This document shows positions 6,699 to 56,447 of a DNA stretch of 64,000 nucleotides, in pieces; position 1 is the stretch's first letter, and each line of letters starts with the position of its first letter. The notes under the pieces were generated by a model. That model did no database searches. It was not told the origin of the DNA and saw only the letters and a list, made by a program, of their open reading frames with translations. Both the position numbers and the translations under genes were made by a program. The DNA lies in NCBI RefSeq assembly GCF_015710575.1, contig NZ_CP065373.1:4774001-4838000 (forward strand), in the 5' to 3' direction. The DNA is from Mycolicibacterium mengxianglii. Lineage in GTDB: Bacteria; Actinomycetota; Actinomycetes; Mycobacteriales; Mycobacteriaceae.

Positions 6699-7187
6699 CT
6701 ATGGCGAGAATTCAGAGCCAACAGTTCGTTCGTCTGCGCGGACGAGAAAGCCGTGGACGTCGCCGAGAACCCAAAGATCACGTACCTTGTCGCCGTCGAA
6801 GGTGAAGATTGGCGCGCCATACCACCAGACGTGGGCGCCTGATGGGGGTGTTCCAAAGAGTTCCTTGCGTTGAATACCGTGGAAAACCATTTTGCCGCAG
6901 ACCTTGTCCCCCTCTTCGATCATTTCGAGGATGTCAGACGTATAACCTTCAATCGTTTCGGTGACCCACTTGACGTACTCACCAAACTCGGCGTGGCCTA
7001 CCACTTGCGGTCCCAGCGATCCACGGAACGTGAAGTCAGGGTGAAAGATCTCGGGAATCAGAGCTAAGTTCGCCTTGTCCCACATCTCCTTGTAGAAGAT
7101 ACGGACGACATTTTTCCGAGCGGTCAGTCTCTCTGGATCGAGGTCAACTTCCACGCCCTGAGTTCCGTACTCGAGCTCGTTATTCAT
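6699..7187 (-). CDS. SnoaL-like / NTF2-fold protein
   Basis: A protein of 162 residues with features of the SnoaL-like polyketide-cyclase/ester-cyclase fold: an N-terminal helix (ARKNVVRIFYKEMWDKANLALI), PEIFHPDFTFRGSLGP, FGEYVKWVTETIEGYTSDI, and a strand-rich end with VWWYGAPIFTFDGDKVRDLWVLGD. Such proteins act as small hydrolases, isomerases or binding domains; the precise reaction here cannot be read. The start ATG at 7187 overlaps the nitrilase stop by 8 bases (7180-7187), so the two are translationally coupled and probably act in one pathway on a nitrile-derived compound. Confidence 0.72.
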   Translation of the reverse strand: MNNELEYGTQGVEVDLDPERLTARKNVVRIFYKEMWDKANLALIPEIFHPDFTFRGSLGPQVVGHAEFGEYVKWVTETIEGYTSDILEMIEEGDKVCGKMVFHGIQRKELFGTPPSGAHVWWYGAPIFTFDGDKVRDLWVLGDVHGFLVRADERTVGSEFSP

Positions 7188-8142
7188 GCTCGACCGCGCC
7201 TTTCCGCTTAGAGAACACCACAGACTCGGCAGGTGTCTCATTGACTATCAAGGTAAAGATGTCCGGCCTGGAGTAGTGGCCGGTGACATCGAGGTCGTAC
7301 TTGGTGCGTGCGATCTCGCCGAGGTCGATGTCTGCAGTCAAGATTCCTTCTTCGTTGAAGAGGGGACCTGCGAGGAACTCGCCGAACGGGTTGACGATGC
7401 AGCTACCTCCGGTCATGAGAATGGTTTCCGGATCGTCGCCTTGGACGCAGGCATAGTCGTCGGGGCAGTCCTCCCGCCGCAGGAACTGGCACGCCGACAG
7501 GACGAAACATCGCCCCTCCACCCCGATGTGTTGCATCGAGGGCGCCCAGCTGTCTCGATTATCTGCAGTGGGGGCGCAATACAGCTCAATGCCCTTCTTG
7601 TACATCGCCATCCGCATGGACGGCATGTAGTTTTCCCAACAGATTACCGCGCCTATTCGGCCGATAGAGGTGTCGAATACAGGCATGGTTGAACCGTCGC
7701 CGAACCCCCAGACCAACCGTTCGCCGCCGGTGGGCATGAGCTTTCGGTGTTTGCCGAGGTAGCCCTGTTCGGGATCGAAGAACACCGCTGTGCAGTACAG
7801 AGTCCCGCCGTCGCGCTCGATCACCCCGATGACGATGCTCATGTTCAGCTGGGTGGAGATCTCTGCCAGACGCTGAGTTTCAGTCCCCGGTACGGCGATC
7901 GAGCTTTCGTAGTAGCGTTGGTAGTCCTGTCGACCTGCGGGGGTGCGACCGCCGACTACGGAACCAAAATCTAGCCCTTTCGGATATGCCGATATGAAGG
8001 CCTCCGGGAATACTGCGAGTTGAACGCCGCGGGATGCAGCCCGGTTGGCGAGCTCTGCCACCTTGTCCAAGGTGCCAGCGGGATCGAACATCACTGGTGC
8101 CGATTGCACGACGGCTACCCGCAACTTTTGATTCGAGTTCAA
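7180..8142 (-). CDS. Nitrilase
   Basis: Carbon-nitrogen hydrolase of 320 residues, nitrilase branch: hydrolyses a nitrile to the carboxylic acid and ammonia. The Glu-Lys-Cys triad is readable as E47 in FPEAFISAYPKG, K134 in KHRKLMPTGGERLVWG and C168 in ICWENYMP; the YPKG and ERLVWGFGDG wording matches true aliphatic or aryl nitrilases better than amidases. I choose the TTG at 8142, which has AAAGGA eight bases upstream and leads straight into the family start LRVAVVQSAPV; the longer frame has no ribosome site. It is coupled to the SnoaL gene downstream and lies 49 bases after the MFS gene, suggesting import, hydrolysis and further processing of a nitrile. Confidence 0.9.
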   Translation of the reverse strand: MNSNQKLRVAVVQSAPVMFDPAGTLDKVAELANRAASRGVQLAVFPEAFISAYPKGLDFGSVVGGRTPAGRQDYQRYYESSIAVPGTETQRLAEISTQLNMSIVIGVIERDGGTLYCTAVFFDPEQGYLGKHRKLMPTGGERLVWGFGDGSTMPVFDTSIGRIGAVICWENYMPSMRMAMYKKGIELYCAPTADNRDSWAPSMQHIGVEGRCFVLSACQFLRREDCPDDYACVQGDDPETILMTGGSCIVNPFGEFLAGPLFNEEGILTADIDLGEIARTKYDLDVTGHYSRPDIFTLIVNETPAESVVFSKRKGAVEHE

Positions 8143-8191
8143 CCGAACGTTCCTTTCTGTGTCGACCAATTCAATACCAGGAGCGCCATAC

Positions 8192-9460
8192 TCAAGCCTC
8201 AGCGTGCTCTGGCCCCAACGCGTCGGAGTCGATGGACTTCGACCGCGTTTCCGGCAGTCCAAGGAGGGCGACAATTGCCACCGAGTACGCACCGACGGTG
8301 TAGATACCAATCGCGACACCTAACGAGAGGCTGGCACTGAGGAATCCGACCAGAGCTGGAAACAGTGCACCAACCCCGCGACCGAAGTTGTAACAGAAGC
8401 CCTGTCCGGTGCCGCGAACCTCGGTGGGGAAGAGTTCGGCGTAGAAAGCCCCGGTGGGCCCGAACATCGCGTTAGCACAGAAGCCCAACGGAAGCCCGAG
8501 CGCCATGAGGACCCAGTTTTCGACGTCGATGAACATGTACACCGATACGAGCAGGATTGACAGGAGCGCAAACAACATGAATGTGGGTTTGCGGCCTATG
8601 CGATCGGAAATGTAACCGCCGGAGATGAATCCGAAGAACGCGCCGGTGATGATGACAGCGAGGAATCCCGTCGTTCCCCCGACAGACAGTCCCTTTTCGG
8701 TGGCGAGATAGGTCGGAAGCCAAGTGACCACTGCGTAATAGCCGCCCTGGAGCCCAATCGAGAACATCGAAGCGAAGACCGTGTTCCGAATGAGATCCCG
8801 GTGGAAAATTCGAGTGAACGTAGCTACAGGGCTGCGCTTCTCGGTGAGTTGGGTTGTTGTTTCGAGGTATACATCGGATTCCTGCACATTTCGCCGAATG
8901 AACAGAATGAACACCGCCGGCAGTGCACCTGCCATGAACATCAGTCTCCAAGCAGTGCCGTTGTCGACCATCGAGAAGACGGCGTAGTAGAGGATCGCGG
9001 CCGCGCCCCAACCGACAGCGAAGCCGCTGTGGACGACTCCGGCGGCTCGACCGCGATACTTGGAGCGGATCACCTCCGACATGAGCACCGCCCCGGCCGC
9101 CCATTCAGCTCCGAAACCGAGTCCCTGAAGGCTGCGTAGCACCAAGAGCTGCTCATAGTTTTGGGCAAACCCGCAGAGCAACGTGAAAACCGAGAACCAG
9201 ACGATGGTGATCTTCAGAGTGCGGACTCTGCCGAATTTGTCTGCCAGTGCTCCGCCTAGCAGGCCTCCCAACGCCGAGAACAACAGAGCTGTGGTACCCA
9301 GCACACCCGCTTCTCCGCGACTGAATCCGAACGCCGCGATCAGGGCAGGGATGACGAAACTGAAGATCTGCACGTCAAACGCGTCGAGTGCCCAGCCCCC
9401 GAAACACGCTGTCATCGTTTTCTTTTCGCGCCTGTCAAGCTGTTTGAGCCAGATTGTCAT
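8192..9460 (-). CDS. MFS transporter, aromatic acid/sugar porter type
   Basis: Twelve-segment major facilitator of 422 residues. DAFDVQIFSFVIPAL in TM1, GALADKFGRVRTLKI between TM2 and TM3, and SDRIGRKPTFMLFAL in the second half are typical of the AAHS/sugar-porter group, whose TM1 aspartate is required for proton-coupled uptake of organic acids. It is first in the minus-strand series ahead of nitrilase and SnoaL, so it probably imports the nitrile or its acid. The ATG at 9460 is preceded by an AAGGACCTAG-like sequence. The substrate is unknown. Confidence 0.87.
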   Translation of the reverse strand: MTIWLKQLDRREKKTMTACFGGWALDAFDVQIFSFVIPALIAAFGFSRGEAGVLGTTALLFSALGGLLGGALADKFGRVRTLKITIVWFSVFTLLCGFAQNYEQLLVLRSLQGLGFGAEWAAGAVLMSEVIRSKYRGRAAGVVHSGFAVGWGAAAILYYAVFSMVDNGTAWRLMFMAGALPAVFILFIRRNVQESDVYLETTTQLTEKRSPVATFTRIFHRDLIRNTVFASMFSIGLQGGYYAVVTWLPTYLATEKGLSVGGTTGFLAVIITGAFFGFISGGYISDRIGRKPTFMLFALLSILLVSVYMFIDVENWVLMALGLPLGFCANAMFGPTGAFYAELFPTEVRGTGQGFCYNFGRGVGALFPALVGFLSASLSLGVAIGIYTVGAYSVAIVALLGLPETRSKSIDSDALGPEHAEA

Positions 9461-50786: not shown

Positions 50787-50917
50787 GTGTTGACTCCAGG
50801 TCCTGTTCAGGGTCGGTTTCACGGGCAGAACCCGTGCGGAGGAGGTGAGTCCTCCATCCCGCGAGCCTAGCAGCCTCGCCCAACCACTTGGTTGGGATGC
50901 CGGTCACCTTCCAATGC

Positions 50918-50975
50918 CGAGCAGACGCAAACTCACCCAGTTCCGGGCGGATTTGGGTGAATTTGCGTCTGCTCG
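50918..50975. terminator. 22-bp inverted repeat between fadA and nitrile hydratase locus
   Basis: cgagcagacgcaaactcacc (from 50918) and ggtgaatttgcgtctgctcg (to 50975) form a 22-bp stem with one mismatch and a 14-base loop. It lies downstream of the nitrile hydratase operon, which ends at 51037, and upstream of fadA, so it is probably the operon's terminator. The cgagcagacgcaaa word is, to my knowledge, a recurrent intergenic palindrome in mycobacteria. Confidence 0.7.
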
Positions 50976-51036
50976 CGGTAGGAGGAGTGCGGGTTGGCAG
51001 GCCCAGCCGAGCCGACGTGCGGTCCGCGAGCCGCCC

Positions 51037-51507
51037 TCAGACCGTCGTGGCGGAGCGCTCGCCGTACACCGCGATGGGCTTGATCCTGTCGCGGATCTCA
51101 GCCAGCGGGGTCATCGGATGATCGTGATCGTGATCATGGGCAGGAGTGGGGCAATCCGGCTGAACTCGAATATGGTTCGCCAGCTCCACGGGCTGTCCGT
51201 GCGGGGTCCCCAGATACGCCAGGCGCCACTCTTCCTGACGTTCGTCCACCATGTCGTCGGACAACCCGGCGTGCCGGTCGATCATCCGGCTGACGGTCGT
51301 CAACCACTGTCGGTAGTAGGACTCGGTGACGGTCTCGTCGGCGCGCCGCGGTGCACCGTTGATCTCCGCGGAGAACTCGCTCACCCACTCTCCCCAGCTG
51401 AACAACTGCTGACGTGTCAGTGCCACCACGATCGCGAAAGCCTCGACCTGCCAAGGCTCTTCGAAGGAGACTTCCGGATCCTCGTTCGGCGACAGCAGCG
51501 CGTTCAT
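51037..51507 (-). CDS. Nitrile hydratase accessory protein with His-rich tail
   Basis: Protein of 156 residues. Residues ~10-75 (FEEPWQVEAFAIVVALTRQQ, LFSWGEWVSEFSAEINGA, SYYRQWLTTVSRMI) match the nitrile hydratase activator/accessory family, itself related to the N-terminal half of the beta subunit; such activators insert cobalt or iron and exchange subunits during maturation. The C-terminal part contains AHDHDHDHP, a striking His-Asp repeat that could bind cobalt or nickel. The ATG overlaps the stop of the beta-C gene (ATGA), so it is the last gene of the operon. Confidence 0.85.
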   Translation of the reverse strand: MNALLSPNEDPEVSFEEPWQVEAFAIVVALTRQQLFSWGEWVSEFSAEINGAPRRADETVTESYYRQWLTTVSRMIDRHAGLSDDMVDERQEEWRLAYLGTPHGQPVELANHIRVQPDCPTPAHDHDHDHPMTPLAEIRDRIKPIAVYGERSATTV

Positions 51508-51863
51508 GACGCCTGCGACGGGTCGAGGTAGCTGTCCCACAGGTCGATGTAGATCCATGAGTTGGGGGTCCCGCGGTCACCGAACAGCTCGCTGCTGCTG
51601 AACTTGATGCTGTAGAGGTGTTCGGGGTTTTCTCCGAGGCCGTGCGCCATGGTGTCGGGGTAGACGAAGAACCCATGATGTCGGTCGACGACGCCGACGT
51701 GCCCTTTGGCGTAGCCGGGTAGCCGGGTGTGCCCGACCGGATTGTGGTTGCGCACCAAGACGGTGTCCCCCATGGTGAAGCGAGGTTCGACGGTGACGGG
51801 CCGGGTGAAGTCGCCGGGTGTCCGAATCGCGCCGAACACCTCGGCAGGCGCCAGTTTCTGCAT
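51504..51863 (-). CDS. Nitrile hydratase beta subunit, C-terminal-half protein
   Basis: Protein of 119 residues equal to the SH3-like C-terminal half of nitrile hydratase beta: RFTMGDTVLVRNHNPVGHTR, LPGYAKGHVGVVDRHHGFFV, YPDTMAHGLGENPEHLYSIK and WIYIDLWDSYLDP. It has its own ATG and an AAAGGA ribosome site, one base after the stop of the beta-N gene and in a different frame. In toyocamycin nitrile hydratase (ToyJKL) and thiocyanate hydrolase the beta chain is likewise made as two polypeptides, so this is probably a genuine subunit rather than an artefact. Confidence 0.88.
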   Translation of the reverse strand: MQKLAPAEVFGAIRTPGDFTRPVTVEPRFTMGDTVLVRNHNPVGHTRLPGYAKGHVGVVDRHHGFFVYPDTMAHGLGENPEHLYSIKFSSSELFGDRGTPNSWIYIDLWDSYLDPSQAS

Positions 51864-51864
51864 G

Positions 51865-52179
51865 TCAGACGATTTCCTTTGCTTCGAGTTCGGCGATTCG
51901 GTCCGCCAGCTCTTCCCTGGTGAACAGTCCGTTGGCGAAAGCGAGGTTCTCCGCGGCGCGCAGCCAGTGCACGTAGTACGGGGTGCCCAGGTATTCGGCG
52001 GGGTCCATGATCTCGATGGAGTGCCGGAACTCGTCCAGCGGGCACAGCCCGGCGGCGAAATACATTCCGATGACCGAGAAGACGTCCTTCTCCCAGGGAC
52101 CGTGGAACACCACTTCGTTGTCCTCGGTCTTGACGGTGCCCATACCGTCTCTGCCACCGACGTCGTGAATTCCGTTCAC
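51865..52179 (-). CDS. Nitrile hydratase beta subunit, N-terminal-half protein
   Basis: Protein of 104 residues equal to the helical N-terminal half of nitrile hydratase beta: it begins MNGIHDVGGRDGMGTVKTED, as beta subunits do, then FHGPWEKDVFSVIGMYFAAG, RHSIEIMDPAEYLGTPYYVH and FTREELADRIAELE. The GTG at 52179 overlaps the alpha-subunit stop (GTGA); a much longer open frame upstream is antisense-like noise. A normal beta subunit is about 220-230 residues; this gene plus the next (104 + 119) add up to exactly that. Confidence 0.88.
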   Translation of the reverse strand: MNGIHDVGGRDGMGTVKTEDNEVVFHGPWEKDVFSVIGMYFAAGLCPLDEFRHSIEIMDPAEYLGTPYYVHWLRAAENLAFANGLFTREELADRIAELEAKEIV

Positions 52180-52802
52180 GCAGCGGCTCCTTCGGGGGTG
52201 GCGGCCAGTTTGGTGCCGATCATGGCGTCGCGGCTCACCAGCTCGGCCAGTTGTTCGATGCTGAATCCTGCTGTCCCGGCGGGACGTTGCGGGATGACGA
52301 CGTAGCGGATCTCCGCGGTGCTGTCCCACACCCGGATCTCGATGTCCTCGGGCAGCGTCGTTCCGAACTCGCCCAGCACCACCCGCGGCTCGAAAACCAC
52401 CCGGGAACGGTATTGCGGGGCCTTGTACCAAGCCGGCGGCAGTCCCAGGACGGCCCAGGGATAACACGAGCACAGTGTGCACACCACGACGTTGTGCACC
52501 TCGTCGGTGTTCTCGACGAAGATGACGTGCGCCCCCTCGAAGCCGGTCATGCCGAGCTCGGCGAGTGTCGAGGTACCGTCGGCGACCAGTTTCGCCTTGA
52601 ATTCTGGTTCCGCCCATGCCCGGGCGATCACCGCAGCGCCGTCCTTGGGTCCGATGCGGTTCTCGTAGATGTCGACCACTTCGTTGAAGGAGTCGGGATC
52701 GATGATGCCCTTCTCCACAAGTAGTGACTGCATCGCTTTGATCCGTAGCTGGGCATAGGGCGGAGGCGCGGTGTAGCCGTCACTGCGCGTGATTTCTTCC
52801 AT
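52176..52802 (-). CDS. Nitrile hydratase alpha subunit, cobalt type
   Basis: Alpha subunit of 208 residues of a nitrile hydratase-family enzyme, which hydrates a nitrile to the amide. The metal claw is VCTLCSCYPW with C108, C111 and C113; threonine in the second position (CTLCSC) is the signature of cobalt enzymes, whereas iron enzymes have CSLCSC. IGPKDGAAVIARAWAEPEFK, PPAWYKAPQYRSRVV and RVWDSTAEIRYVVIPQRPAG are also standard. It stands 30 bases after the double-nitrilase gene and overlaps the beta-N gene. A thiocyanate-hydrolase-like substrate cannot be excluded, because that enzyme has the same architecture. Confidence 0.93.
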   Translation of the reverse strand: MEEITRSDGYTAPPPYAQLRIKAMQSLLVEKGIIDPDSFNEVVDIYENRIGPKDGAAVIARAWAEPEFKAKLVADGTSTLAELGMTGFEGAHVIFVENTDEVHNVVVCTLCSCYPWAVLGLPPAWYKAPQYRSRVVFEPRVVLGEFGTTLPEDIEIRVWDSTAEIRYVVIPQRPAGTAGFSIEQLAELVSRDAMIGTKLAATPEGAAA

Positions 52803-52832
52803 CGGTGTTGTGATTCCTTTCCTCGGTCGGTG

Positions 52833-54616
52833 TCAGCCGACGCCGGCGAGCGTGACGCCGGTTGTGACCTCGACGGTTGCGGGCCGGTCCGGCGCGGACA
52901 GCGTGCGGTAGTGGTGCGGCAGGCGCATGGTGACCAGGTCCTTGCGCCGCACCACATTCGCGTTGTACGGGCCGGGGCCGTCGCTGGTGTCGATGGCTGC
53001 CACCAGCACCTCTGCAGCGGTGCCTGCCACGCGCTCCCGGCGGGGGAACTCGAAGGTGTCGGGGCCGAATAGTCCACTGCGACCGCCGAATTCAGGCGGG
53101 TTGGCGTAGGCGAGGTACACGTTGTTCTCCCCGGCCCGCACCCGCATGTGGTGCCAGTGCAGGTGGCTGGCGCCTCGGGGGATCGGATAGTTCAGCGGCA
53201 CCGTCGTGCCCGGGTGCCCGTGATGCAGCGGTGCGGCGATCCGGGCGGGCACGGCGATCACGTCACATCCACGCAGGGCTGCCACCCGGCCGGACTCGGG
53301 GCGCAGCACGTCGTCTCCGTGTAACAGCGCGACCCGGCCCACCGGGATATCGGCGTGCGTCCAACAATCCCCTGCCGCGAAGTACATCTCGTCGTCCTCG
53401 CTGAGGTGGATCTTGCGATGGACGGCGACGATGCCCTCGGGGCCGATGAGCACGGCACTGTTGTACGGGGCCGTCCCCACGTCACCGCGCTCGGCGATCC
53501 CGACCACCAGATAGCTCCCGCAGCCGGCGGCAGAATCCAGCAGTGGTTGCAGAATACCGTCCACAGCAATACTTTCCGCGTAGTCAACCGCGGCACTGGG
53601 TGGACCCGAGACGCTGAGTTCCGGAAACACCACCAGGTCAGCACCGGCGTCGACGGCGTCGAGAAAAGCTCTTCGGATCTGCGCGACGTTGGCTGCGCTG
53701 TCTGAGGTGGCATCCTGCTGGACGGCGGCGAGAACCGAGGGCCGACCGACTGGAATGGGGTTATTGCCGTAGAGGCTGAAGAAATCTCGTGGATTCCACA
53801 GGTAGGTGTTGATCTGTAGGTCGCGGTACAACTCGGGCCTGCGTCCGGACAGGCCCGAGGCCGATGACGCCTTGGCCGCGCGCACCGCGGTCAGATCGAT
53901 CTCGGCAGTGATCACTCCGTCGCCCCCGTCCTGGGAGGCCAGGATCTCCGAATCCGGTGCGATGATGCAGGATCCGCCGCTGAACTGCACGCCGCGTTCC
54001 AAACCCCAACGGTTGCTTTCGATCAGGTAGCAGGAGTTCTCGTAGGCCCGGCTGATCCAGTATGGCGCCGGCGTGCGCTCGGCGAGCCAGTTGCTGATGT
54101 GGCAGATCACGTCGGCGCCGTCGAGTGCCACCACTCTGGCCGTCTCCACGAAGTGGATGTCCATGCAGATCAGCAACGCGATCCGGCCCAGGGCGGTGTC
54201 GAAGACCTGATGCCCCCGGTCTCCCGGTGTGGCCCATTTCGGTTCGGCGATGTAGCCGTGCGTCTTTCGGTGGGTGCCGATGACCCCCCCGGACCGATGA
54301 GAACGGCGGAGTTGTACAGCAGGCCGGTGTCGGGGTCGCGTTCCGGCATGCCGATCACGATGTGGCAGTCGTGGATGGCGGCGAGTTCGGCGAACACGTC
54401 GGTAGCGGGACCCGGCACCGGCTCGGCCATGGTCTCCGCCTCGGCGGGGCCGAAGAAGCAATAGCCGGAGATGGCCATCTCCGGGGTGGTGATCAGCTTG
54501 GCTCCCCCGGCGGCGGCCTGGGTCACCAGTTCGGCAAGGCGGGTGATGTTGCCTGGTTTGTCGAACAACACCGGTTCGAACTGGATCGCCGAAGCCAGGT
54601 ACGTCGTCTCCGACAC
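52833..54616 (-). CDS. Double nitrilase-superfamily protein (frameshifted; second domain lacks Cys)
   Basis: Two carbon-nitrogen hydrolase domains in tandem, about 594 residues if read through. Domain 1 starts at ATG 54616 (MSETTYLASAIQFEPVLFDK) with Glu in TTPEMAISGY, Lys in THRKTHGYI and Cys in LLICMDIHFVETA: a full triad. Between GPGG and VIGTHRK the frame changes at a run of seven Cs (54284-54290; G7 on the coding strand). Domain 2 has Glu in FPELSVSG and Lys in VHRKIHLSEDDEMYF, but the cysteine position reads ALLHGDD, so the nucleophile is lost. It precedes the nitrile hydratase genes and may be the amidase of the pathway. Pseudogene, sequencing error and slippage are all possible explanations of the shift. 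Confidence 0.8.
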
Positions 54617-54711
54617 TGTTGTCCTTCCATCGTCCTCACTGTCACCACTCAGATGCGACCGGTGACGGCTTGAACGCTAGGAATCTCGCGTGTCGCCGAG
54701 TTACAGCTGCG

Positions 54712-54757
54712 GTTTCGTTGGTGTTAACGAACTCCGATTCATGTTTCGTTTGTGTTA
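54712..54757. promoter_or_regulatory. Paired 15-bp direct repeats upstream of nitrile hydratase operon
   Basis: gtttcgttggtgtta (54712-54726) and gtttcgtttgtgtta (54743-54757) differ at one base and are 31 bp apart, about three helical turns. They lie about 100 bases upstream of the double-nitrilase start; the second copy overlaps the last codons of the marR gene. This geometry suits an activator or repressor site for the operon, with the MarR or AmiC-like protein as candidate ligand-responsive regulators. Confidence 0.5.
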
Positions 54758-55239
54758 CCTGCGACGCTCTGAACTGCGTAGTTGATGGTCCAAAAAAGGT
54801 TGTCGTCGGAAACTGATTCCGCCGATTCGAGCACGTCGAGCGCGTTGCCGACGGCCACCTGCAGCGACGTGAGCGCGTCGCGCACGCCGGTGTCGAGGTG
54901 CGCGTCAGCACGGTCGAGCACGTCGGCGCAGGACCGGTGTACTGCGGTGCCGCGGTTGGTCAGGTGGATGTTGATGCGCCGCCGGTCGGCGGGGTCGATG
55001 CGGCGGTACAGCAGGTTGTTGGTGACCATCCGGTCCACCAGTTTCGACAGCACCGACGGCGCCAGGCCCACATCCTTGCCGATCTTCGACATCACCGAAG
55101 GTCCGTTGGTCGCCACGTGGTCCAGGACCCGCCACTCGTCGAGAGCGCAGCCCTGGACTGCCAGCAGTGCCTCCAGCCGACTGCGCAACCTACGGACGAG
55201 CGCATCGGCCTGCAGCGCGACCTGCGATGCCGTTCCCAT
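54739..55239 (-). CDS. MarR family regulator, NhhD-like
   Basis: Winged-helix MarR protein of 166 residues. DNA-binding segment: LDEWRVLDHVATNGPSVMSK, IGKDVGLAPSVLSKLVDRMV, NNLLYRRIDPADRRRINIHL, with the DRR wing. It lies immediately upstream of the nitrile hydratase locus on the same strand and divergent from an AmiC-like gene. In Rhodococcus rhodochrous J1 the high-molecular-mass nitrile hydratase is controlled by NhhD (MarR-like) with NhhC (AmiC-like); the same pair here argues for amide- or nitrile-inducible control. Specific operator unproven. Confidence 0.83.
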   Translation of the reverse strand: MGTASQVALQADALVRRLRSRLEALLAVQGCALDEWRVLDHVATNGPSVMSKIGKDVGLAPSVLSKLVDRMVTNNLLYRRIDPADRRRINIHLTNRGTAVHRSCADVLDRADAHLDTGVRDALTSLQVAVGNALDVLESAESVSDDNLFWTINYAVQSVAGNTNET

Positions 55240-55364
55240 TGCCGGGTCCCTTCCATCGGTCTACCGTGGGCGCCGGTGGCGCACCACCGTCGGTGGCGAC
55301 CCTAGTCGCCCGATCCGGTAAGGGGCCGACTGAAAACCGTGACGCTCGTCGAAAGTCGGCCGCA

Positions 55365-56447
55365 ATGAACACTTCCGCCCACGACGACGCATTCAGTGTC
55401 GCCGTGGTCAACCCGCTGCAGGGGCCGCTGGGAATCATCGGCCCACCGGCTCAGCTGTGCGCACAGTTGGCGGCCGAGGAGATCAATGCGGCGGGCGGCA
55501 TCCTGGGCCGTGAGCTCCGTCTGCTGACGGTCGACGGTGGGCTCCCGCCCGCAGTCATCGCCGCCCGGGTGGACGCGCTGGTGTCCAGCGGGCAGGCGCA
55601 TTCGGTGATCGGCACTCACACCTCATCGGTGCGCAAGGCGGTTGCCCCCACCCTGGCAGGACGGGTGCCCTACGTGTACACCTCGTTGTACGAGGGCGGT
55701 GAACGCGATCCCGGCGTGTTCATCACCGGCGAGACACCCGATACCCAGCTGCTTCCGGCGCTCACCATGCTCGACGAAGAGTTCCGGGTCCGCGAATGGT
55801 TCGTGGTGGGCAACGACTACATCTGGCCGCGGTCGACCGCGCAGCAGATCCGCAGACACCTGGCCAACGACAACCGGGCACTCGCCGGGCAGGCTTATGT
55901 TCCCTTGGGCTGCAACGATTTCACCGTGGTGCTGGACGGCCTGGAGCGGTCAAATGCGACAGGCGTCGTGGTTCTGCTCGTCGGCCAGGATGCCGTCGAT
56001 TTCCATCGCCAGTTCGCCGAGCGTGGACTACACCATCAGATGGTGCGGCTGAGTCCCCTGATGGACGAGAACATGCTCCTGGCTGCCGGTGCGGCGGCCT
56101 CCGAGCAGCTGTACGTCGGCGCCGCCTACTTCTCGACGCTGCCGACCCAGGGCAGCCTGGATTTCACTGCCCGTTACTCGCGGCGTTTCGGCCCCGAAGC
56201 TCCCATGGTGGGCACCATGGCCGAATCCTGTTACGAGGGTTTGCATCTGCTGGCAGCACTGACAAAAACGGCTGGCAGCGCGGCGGTTTCGGAGTTGTGC
56301 CGGGTGGCCGATGACGTCGAATTCGAGGGCCCGCGTGGTGCGCAGCGTCTCACCGCACACCACACGTCCCAGTTGAACTACCTGGCCAAGGCCTCCGGGC
56401 TCGATTTCGACGTGCTTGCCTCGCTGAGCTCGGCCAAGGTCGGGTAG
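55365..56447 (+). CDS. AmiC/NhhC-like amide sensor protein
   Basis: Periplasmic-binding-protein fold of 360 residues without a signal peptide, so cytosolic, like the amide sensor AmiC of Pseudomonas and NhhC of Rhodococcus. FSVAVVNPLQGPLGIIGPPA, QLAAEEINAAGGILGRELRL, SVIGTHTSSVRKAVAPTLAG, VPYVYTSLYEGGERDPGVFI and REWFVVGNDYIWPRSTAQQI are the landmarks; YTSLYEGGE and NDYIWPR are typical of the urea/amide-binding branch. ATG 55365 is the family start; upstream in-frame sequence is not. Divergent from marR by about 125 bases. Its 3' end overlaps the convergent OYE gene by 70 bases. Confidence 0.85.
   Translation: MNTSAHDDAFSVAVVNPLQGPLGIIGPPAQLCAQLAAEEINAAGGILGRELRLLTVDGGLPPAVIAARVDALVSSGQAHSVIGTHTSSVRKAVAPTLAGRVPYVYTSLYEGGERDPGVFITGETPDTQLLPALTMLDEEFRVREWFVVGNDYIWPRSTAQQIRRHLANDNRALAGQAYVPLGCNDFTVVLDGLERSNATGVVVLLVGQDAVDFHRQFAERGLHHQMVRLSPLMDENMLLAAGAAASEQLYVGAAYFSTLPTQGSLDFTARYSRRFGPEAPMVGTMAESCYEGLHLLAALTKTAGSAAVSELCRVADDVEFEGPRGAQRLTAHHTSQLNYLAKASGLDFDVLASLSSAKVG

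Follow-up and report, generated by a model that had tools for sequence, protein, structure and literature searches.

A predicted cobalt-type nitrile hydratase with its beta subunit encoded as two adjacent genes in Mycolicibacterium mengxianglii

Four consecutive genes of Mycolicibacterium mengxianglii, all on the minus strand and in the order alpha, beta-N, beta-C, activator, very probably encode a cobalt-type nitrile hydratase in which two adjacent chains, divided at the linker between the two halves, make up the beta subunit. The families of the chains, the conserved split, purifying selection, the presence of an activator, and the retention of beta residues across the two chains all support this assignment. 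Enzymes of this build are already known; the split itself is real and conserved.

Gene layout and family assignment

The window analysed here is a stretch of 64,000 nucleotides (contig NZ_CP065373.1, positions 4,774,001 to 4,838,000). It contains the following features:

52176..52802, minus strand: nitrile hydratase alpha, 208 aa, with CTLCSC at residues 108-113 (PF02979, TIGR01323, PDB 4ob1_A)
51865..52179, minus strand: beta-N, 104 aa, with a GTG start inside the alpha stop (GTGA) (PF21006, 3qxe_B)
51861..51880, minus strand: beta-N/beta-C junction, consisting of AAAGGA, the beta-N stop TGA, one base, and the beta-C ATG
51504..51863, minus strand: beta-C, the SH3-like half, 119 aa, with an ATG start (PF02211, 3qyh_B)
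51037..51507, minus strand: nitrile hydratase activator (accessory) protein, 156 aa, overlapping the beta-C stop (TIGR03889)
52833..54616, minus strand: two-domain CN-hydrolase of the nitrilase superfamily, frame-broken in the first domain, with PF00795 in both pieces
54739..55239, minus strand: MarR-type regulator adjoining the operon (PF01047, 7.7e-9)
55167..56447, plus strand: divergent UrtA-like substrate-binding protein (PF13458, 2.1e-69; TIGR03407 below its cut-off)

The positions, lengths, frames and motifs that a preliminary description of this DNA had reported for the three chains were confirmed, as were the separate starts of the two halves (GTG in the GTGA overlap for beta-N; ATG with AAAGGA upstream for beta-C). 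The activator gene (51507-51037) and the frame-broken nitrilase-family gene upstream were absent from that description. The activator carries a His/Asp-rich stretch, HDHDHDHP, near its end. The genome, a single contig of 5.96 Mb, has only one alpha match. An Rfam search of positions 50800-55400 with 4227 families gave no match at the gathering threshold.

Each chain falls in the expected Pfam family: NHase_alpha (PF02979) for alpha at 2.9e-83, NHase_beta_N (PF21006) for beta-N at 9.8e-30, and NHase_beta_C (PF02211) for beta-C at 2.9e-35. At these E-values, the observation is far beyond chance. Alpha scores 289.9 bits against TIGR01323 (nitrile hydratase alpha), above the cut-off of 249.85, and 179.9 bits against TIGR03887 (the alpha-like gamma chain of thiocyanate hydrolase), below the cut-off of 291.45. 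TIGR03888 describes the whole beta chain and has a cut-off of 152.2; the two halves score 98.3 and 124.5, both below it, and they match adjoining stretches of the nitrile hydratase beta model (2-98 and 122-225 of 226). The activator passes TIGR03889 (72 bits against a cut-off of 46) and is itself weakly homologous to beta-N, matching PF21006 at 2.5e-6. Such a protein usually, though not always, accompanies cobalt-type nitrile hydratases. The CTLCSC motif is that of the cobalt site of Ensifer PnhA and CnhA, according to the available extracts of PMC8278588.

Searches of the PDB agree with these families. The best match of alpha is 4ob1_A (2.4e-89), while the halves find their best sequence matches in the beta chain of Pseudomonas putida nitrile hydratase: beta-N in residues 1-93 of 3qxe_B (2.7e-23), and beta-C in residues 106-219 of 3qyh_B (1.6e-31). 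In the searches with all three chains, the weakest enzyme matches are thiocyanate hydrolase chains (E 0.0014 for beta-N and 0.003 for beta-C). An AlphaFold model of beta-C (mean pLDDT 78.0) has its best match in the P. putida beta chain 3qyg_B (E 7.1e-12); the beta-N model is poor (mean pLDDT 63.8), though it too matches nitrile hydratase beta chains best.

Five beta residues are named in the titles of PDB mutant structures (Arg52, Glu56, His71, Arg157 and Tyr215), and all are retained across the two chains, with positions read from PDB sequence alignments and ranges. Three lie in beta-N, aligned to P. putida beta-Arg52, Glu56 and His71. The other two lie in beta-C, where Arg47 corresponds to beta-Arg157 of P. 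thermophila (residue 149 in P. putida) and Tyr112 to P. putida beta-Tyr215. A non-classical substrate had been suggested in the preliminary description; nothing was found in its favour, and the full set of these residues is kept.

Neighbouring genes and the proposed pathway

The neighbouring genes fit a putative route from nitrile to amide, and from amide to acid and ammonia, with a supply of cobalt; both substrate and pathway are read from gene content. The activator would load cobalt and drive maturation of the alpha claw. Alpha would then swap onto beta-N and beta-C, and the resulting (alpha, beta-N, beta-C)2 enzyme would hydrate nitriles to amides. Acid and ammonia would be released from the amide by an amidase of the nitrilase family, the gene for which is broken in this genome. 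The tight stop-start spacing at the junction would keep beta-N and beta-C near 1:1.

The upstream CN-hydrolase is open as a 581-aa frame in Mycobacterium sp. MBM (L032, 3603-5348) and is also open in Prauserella (L033); in the window, its first domain is broken into two frames. In MBM and Prauserella, the first domain has a Cys (ICMD), which we take to be the nitrilase nucleophile. Since LLHGDD or IAHGED replaces the Cys motif in the second domain, that domain is probably non-catalytic. A homologue of the UrtA-like protein stands at the corresponding place in L032 (1777-2859). Directly after the activator, MBM has a DUF1097 gene and then the cobalt-import genes CbiM, CbiN and CbiQ (L032, 7246-9469), with Pfam matches above cut-off, although the NCBIfam model for CbiQ is just under its own cut-off. 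The genome of M. mengxianglii has a single CbiM match at 3.45 Mb, about 1.4 Mb from the operon at 4.83 Mb. A second nitrilase-like gene is found elsewhere in the window (7180-8319, minus strand); it is 27.5% identical to the L032 hydrolase over the first domain and is flanked by MFS-transporter-like and SnoaL-like genes, both named from sequence reading only.

Some observations count against the assignment as a working cobalt nitrile hydratase. The adjacent hydrolase is frame-broken, so that the pathway, or the assembly at this point, may be damaged; the cobalt importer is not adjacent in this genome; the beta-N model is poor; and beta-C is looser in the comparison with Prauserella.

The published descriptions of two actinomycete enzymes invite a different reading, in which the operon would encode a direct relative of ToyJKL or of Streptomyces canus AnhDEA, acting on a dedicated substrate that is bulky or a secondary metabolite. 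Those accounts describe the same three-chain plan in actinomycetes (PMC12648386, PMC7329996). ToyJKL is the three-chain toyocamycin nitrile hydratase of an actinomycete (PMC12648386), and alpha alone is reported to be sufficient in that enzyme (PMC7329996, citing Nelp 2014). By description, it shares its three chains with the enzyme considered here, but it belongs to an antibiotic cluster, whereas no antibiotic genes are among the neighbours identified in the window, which code for a hydrolase of the nitrilase family, a regulator of the MarR type and a substrate-binding protein. In S. canus, as far as its published description goes, anhD lies upstream of anhE and anhA without an activator gene, whereas here alpha comes first and an activator is encoded. 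Such a direct relationship is judged very unlikely.

The frame break in the hydrolase could also mean that the operon is decaying, the hydratase genes surviving in this strain as relics. However, the reading frames of all four are open and their dN/dS against mycobacterial relatives is low, which leaves decay only a slim chance.

Conservation and frequency of the split

For the nitrile hydratase with a split beta, the same four-gene order recurs in three other mycobacteria (L003, L004, L005) and in Prauserella halophila (L033). It is also present in Mycobacterium sp. MBM (L032), where beta-N and beta-C are identical to those of one of the three mycobacteria. A scan of 396 genomes of the genus found beta-N at 84-100% identity in four (that of the window and three others), the next-highest identity being 52% among the matches listed. 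When a collection of 84,980 species genomes was scanned with a beta-N alignment, nine loci were found, seven with a single beta and two split (Mycobacterium sp. MBM and Prauserella halophila). In an order-wide sample of 397 genomes, 12 matched at E up to 1e-24, and the split was found only in the genome of the window and in a Prauserella-like genome (G1162), which has one fused locus besides its split locus. In a phylum-wide sample of 396 genomes, 8 matched at E up to 1e-20, with the split only in the genome of the window.

The junction reads TGA-C-ATG in all four mycobacterial species compared, and is a TGATG overlap in Prauserella and Aminobacter. Across six mycobacterial pairs, dN/dS (Nei-Gojobori) is 0.058-0.083 for alpha, 0.052-0.189 for beta-N, 0.069-0.139 for beta-C and 0.101-0.168 for the activator. 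Purifying selection acts on both beta halves. In the comparison with Prauserella, beta-C is much less conserved than alpha, with 57-58% identity to that of the window and a dN/dS of 0.42-0.45. Because the same gene order is found in other species and both halves are under purifying selection, the split is not a sequencing error.

A split beta is not rare in kind. Single-query searches returned 13 free-standing beta-N and 13 free-standing beta-C relatives. Despite these small numbers, rarity is ruled out by a profile search with beta-C, which matched 3457 proteins; 117 of the best 120 of these 3457 are 113-123 aa long, a count that gives lengths without gene context, in which the length filter drops most full-length betas and some proteins may be fragments.

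Some of the relatives are found on plasmids. On pUSP2 of Aminobacter sp. MSH1, nthA is followed by two proteins of 103 and 118 aa, both annotated as "SH3-like domain-containing protein", and by an activator, with TGATG between the halves. Plasmids of Agrobacterium vitis (L055, 4265-4914) and Rhizobium sp. NIBRBAC000502774 (L067, 2657-3309) have a beta in two frames with TGATG and TAATG junctions, respectively. These two betas are absent from the PLSDB gene table, from which pseudogenes are omitted, and a single locus-tag number is missing from each, which may mean that the source annotation has one broken gene there. In Rhizobium leguminosarum, Azospirillum brasilense and Agrobacterium pusense (L058, L066, L071), the order is beta-C, alpha, beta-N, and an activator was not detected in these loci; CbtA/CbtB genes lie near L058 and L071. 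Many plasmid relatives have ordinary single betas. Nitrile hydratase loci with alpha or other parts in pieces occur on plasmids of Caballeronia, Pseudomonas silvicola and Rhizobium leguminosarum (L063, L064, L069).

Trees and repeated splitting or re-fusion

Trees were built from aligned alpha, beta-N and beta-C domains of 90 loci, leaving out duplicates (L001, L002, L072, L032, L080) and broken loci (L014, L063, L064, L069). In a quick tree of all 90 rows, the window groups with L003, L004, L005 and Prauserella in a single clade (SH-aLRT 100). This clade lies within a larger group (93, not starred) that consists of the 19 alpha-first rows; in 11 of these, beta is fused. A more careful tree was made from 33 of the 90 rows, with near-copies, long branches and the thiocyanate hydrolase row dropped. 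The same clade was recovered (100/100); the wider group has modest support (82/92) and includes two beta-first rows.

The AU test rejects the eight sampled alpha-first split loci as one clade, with p 0.0003 on the 33-row careful tree and p 0.044 on the 90-row quick tree. On this result, separation of the two halves at that linker, or their re-fusion, seems to have happened repeatedly within the group; two of the eight loci (the Agrobacterium vitis and Rhizobium sp. plasmids), however, may be annotated as broken genes.

A His-rich activator tail was considered as a mark of split enzymes. At least five His within some 20 activator residues occur in 8/8 split alpha-first loci, 3/11 fused alpha-first loci and 19/66 fused beta-first loci, counting only activator matches of 45 bits or more, with three of the dropped broken loci lacking any. 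Since fused loci carry such tails too, this candidate was ruled out.

The trees also bear on whether the enzyme could be a thiocyanate hydrolase or belong to its subfamily. In thiocyanate hydrolase (ScnABC, 2DD4), the beta halves are likewise separate chains accompanied by an activator, the gene order being alpha, beta, gamma, activator in the available text of PMC7193024, and the beta-C model matches its separate chain 2dd4_A with a TM of 0.74. The AU test also tolerates a tree in which the rhizobial loci of order beta-C, alpha, beta-N join the split clade of actinobacteria (p 0.109 with 33 rows); with 90 rows, which include a Roseomonas thiocyanate hydrolase, p is 0.634 and the joined tree is slightly better. 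Against this, the NCBI cut-offs place alpha inside TIGR01323 and far under TIGR03887, outside the alpha-like (gamma) family of ScnABC, which rules out identity with thiocyanate hydrolase, and both halves match thiocyanate hydrolase chains far less well than P. putida nitrile hydratase. Membership of that subfamily is, thus, extremely unlikely. The preliminary description had proposed a nitrile- or thiocyanate-hydrating enzyme of three subunits; a nitrile hydratase with a truly split beta stands, and the thiocyanate alternative falls with the failed TIGR03887 match and the weak PDB matches.

There is next to no chance that a sequencing error, or a recent frameshift peculiar to this strain, has made two genes out of an ordinary single-chain beta, for although the beta-C frame stays open upstream of its ATG and the neighbouring hydrolase is frame-broken, the split lies at the same place in five species with its starts kept, databases contain free-standing relatives of beta-N (104-107 aa) and of beta-C (113-122 aa), both free-standing halves of Mycobacterium sp. 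21AC1 lie on one contig of 469618 bases, and dN/dS among mycobacteria is low on both halves. Conservation across five species, with start codons kept, rules out sequencing error and bears out the earlier claim that beta is encoded as two genes; the recent frameshift that had been named as its possible refutation is excluded as a recent event, even though the trees place the clade amid fused relatives.

Known systems and the possible meaning of a free beta-N beside an activator

The nearest solved beta by sequence for both halves of the predicted nitrile hydratase is that of the P. putida cobalt enzyme (3QXE), whose mutant-structure residues are kept; it differs in having a single beta chain of 219 aa. 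Its gene order, like that of the window, is alpha-first. The nthA locus of Aminobacter sp. MSH1 pUSP2 (NZ_CP028970.1, L056) has the same gene order as the window and similar halves with a stop-start overlap. It is, however, alphaproteobacterial, has CbtB/CbtA after it and an amidase upstream rather than a two-domain CN-hydrolase, and falls in a separate part of the tree. Through this record, the order alpha, beta-N, beta-C, activator is already in public annotation. It does not appear as such among the six gene orders in the available part of a review (PMC7193024), and a literature search of open-licence PMC papers found neither a mycobacterial split enzyme nor this order. The Microvirga flocculans plasmid nitrile hydratase has, by its published description, an alpha gene between two beta genes (PMC11573777). 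Like L058, L066 and L071, it resembles the window in having two beta pieces and differs in that alpha lies between them; the latter three loci differ further in that no activator was detected.

A published split-beta cobalt enzyme is AnhD-AnhE-AnhA of S. canus CGMCC 13662, which is active as AnhD2E2A2 (PMC7329996, PMC13243292). A split-beta enzyme can, thus, be active, on the evidence of the available text of PMC7329996. By that description, the enzyme resembles the one proposed here in its N-like and C-like beta chains, its cobalt, and its actinomycete host. The same source gives S. canus no activator gene, the work of the chaperone being done by AnhD.

One point of fresh interest is that, unlike S. 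canus as published, the mycobacterial and Prauserella clade has retained an activator alongside a free beta-N. Because the activator is itself a relative of beta-N, the freed beta-N could act as a second swapping chaperone, like AnhD. The clade might then be a living intermediate between activator-dependent and activator-free three-chain enzymes, and the recurrent split might have been selected for maturation rather than for substrate. This proposal is tentative and, on balance, unlikely.

The pieces of such enzymes are labelled "SH3-like domain-containing protein" in several public records and are, thus, easily missed when genomes are mined for biocatalysts. The case also suggests that two beta halves can stay separate for a long time. 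With a free beta-N and an activator side by side, this clade is a place to ask directly whether beta-N could stand in for the activator on its own.
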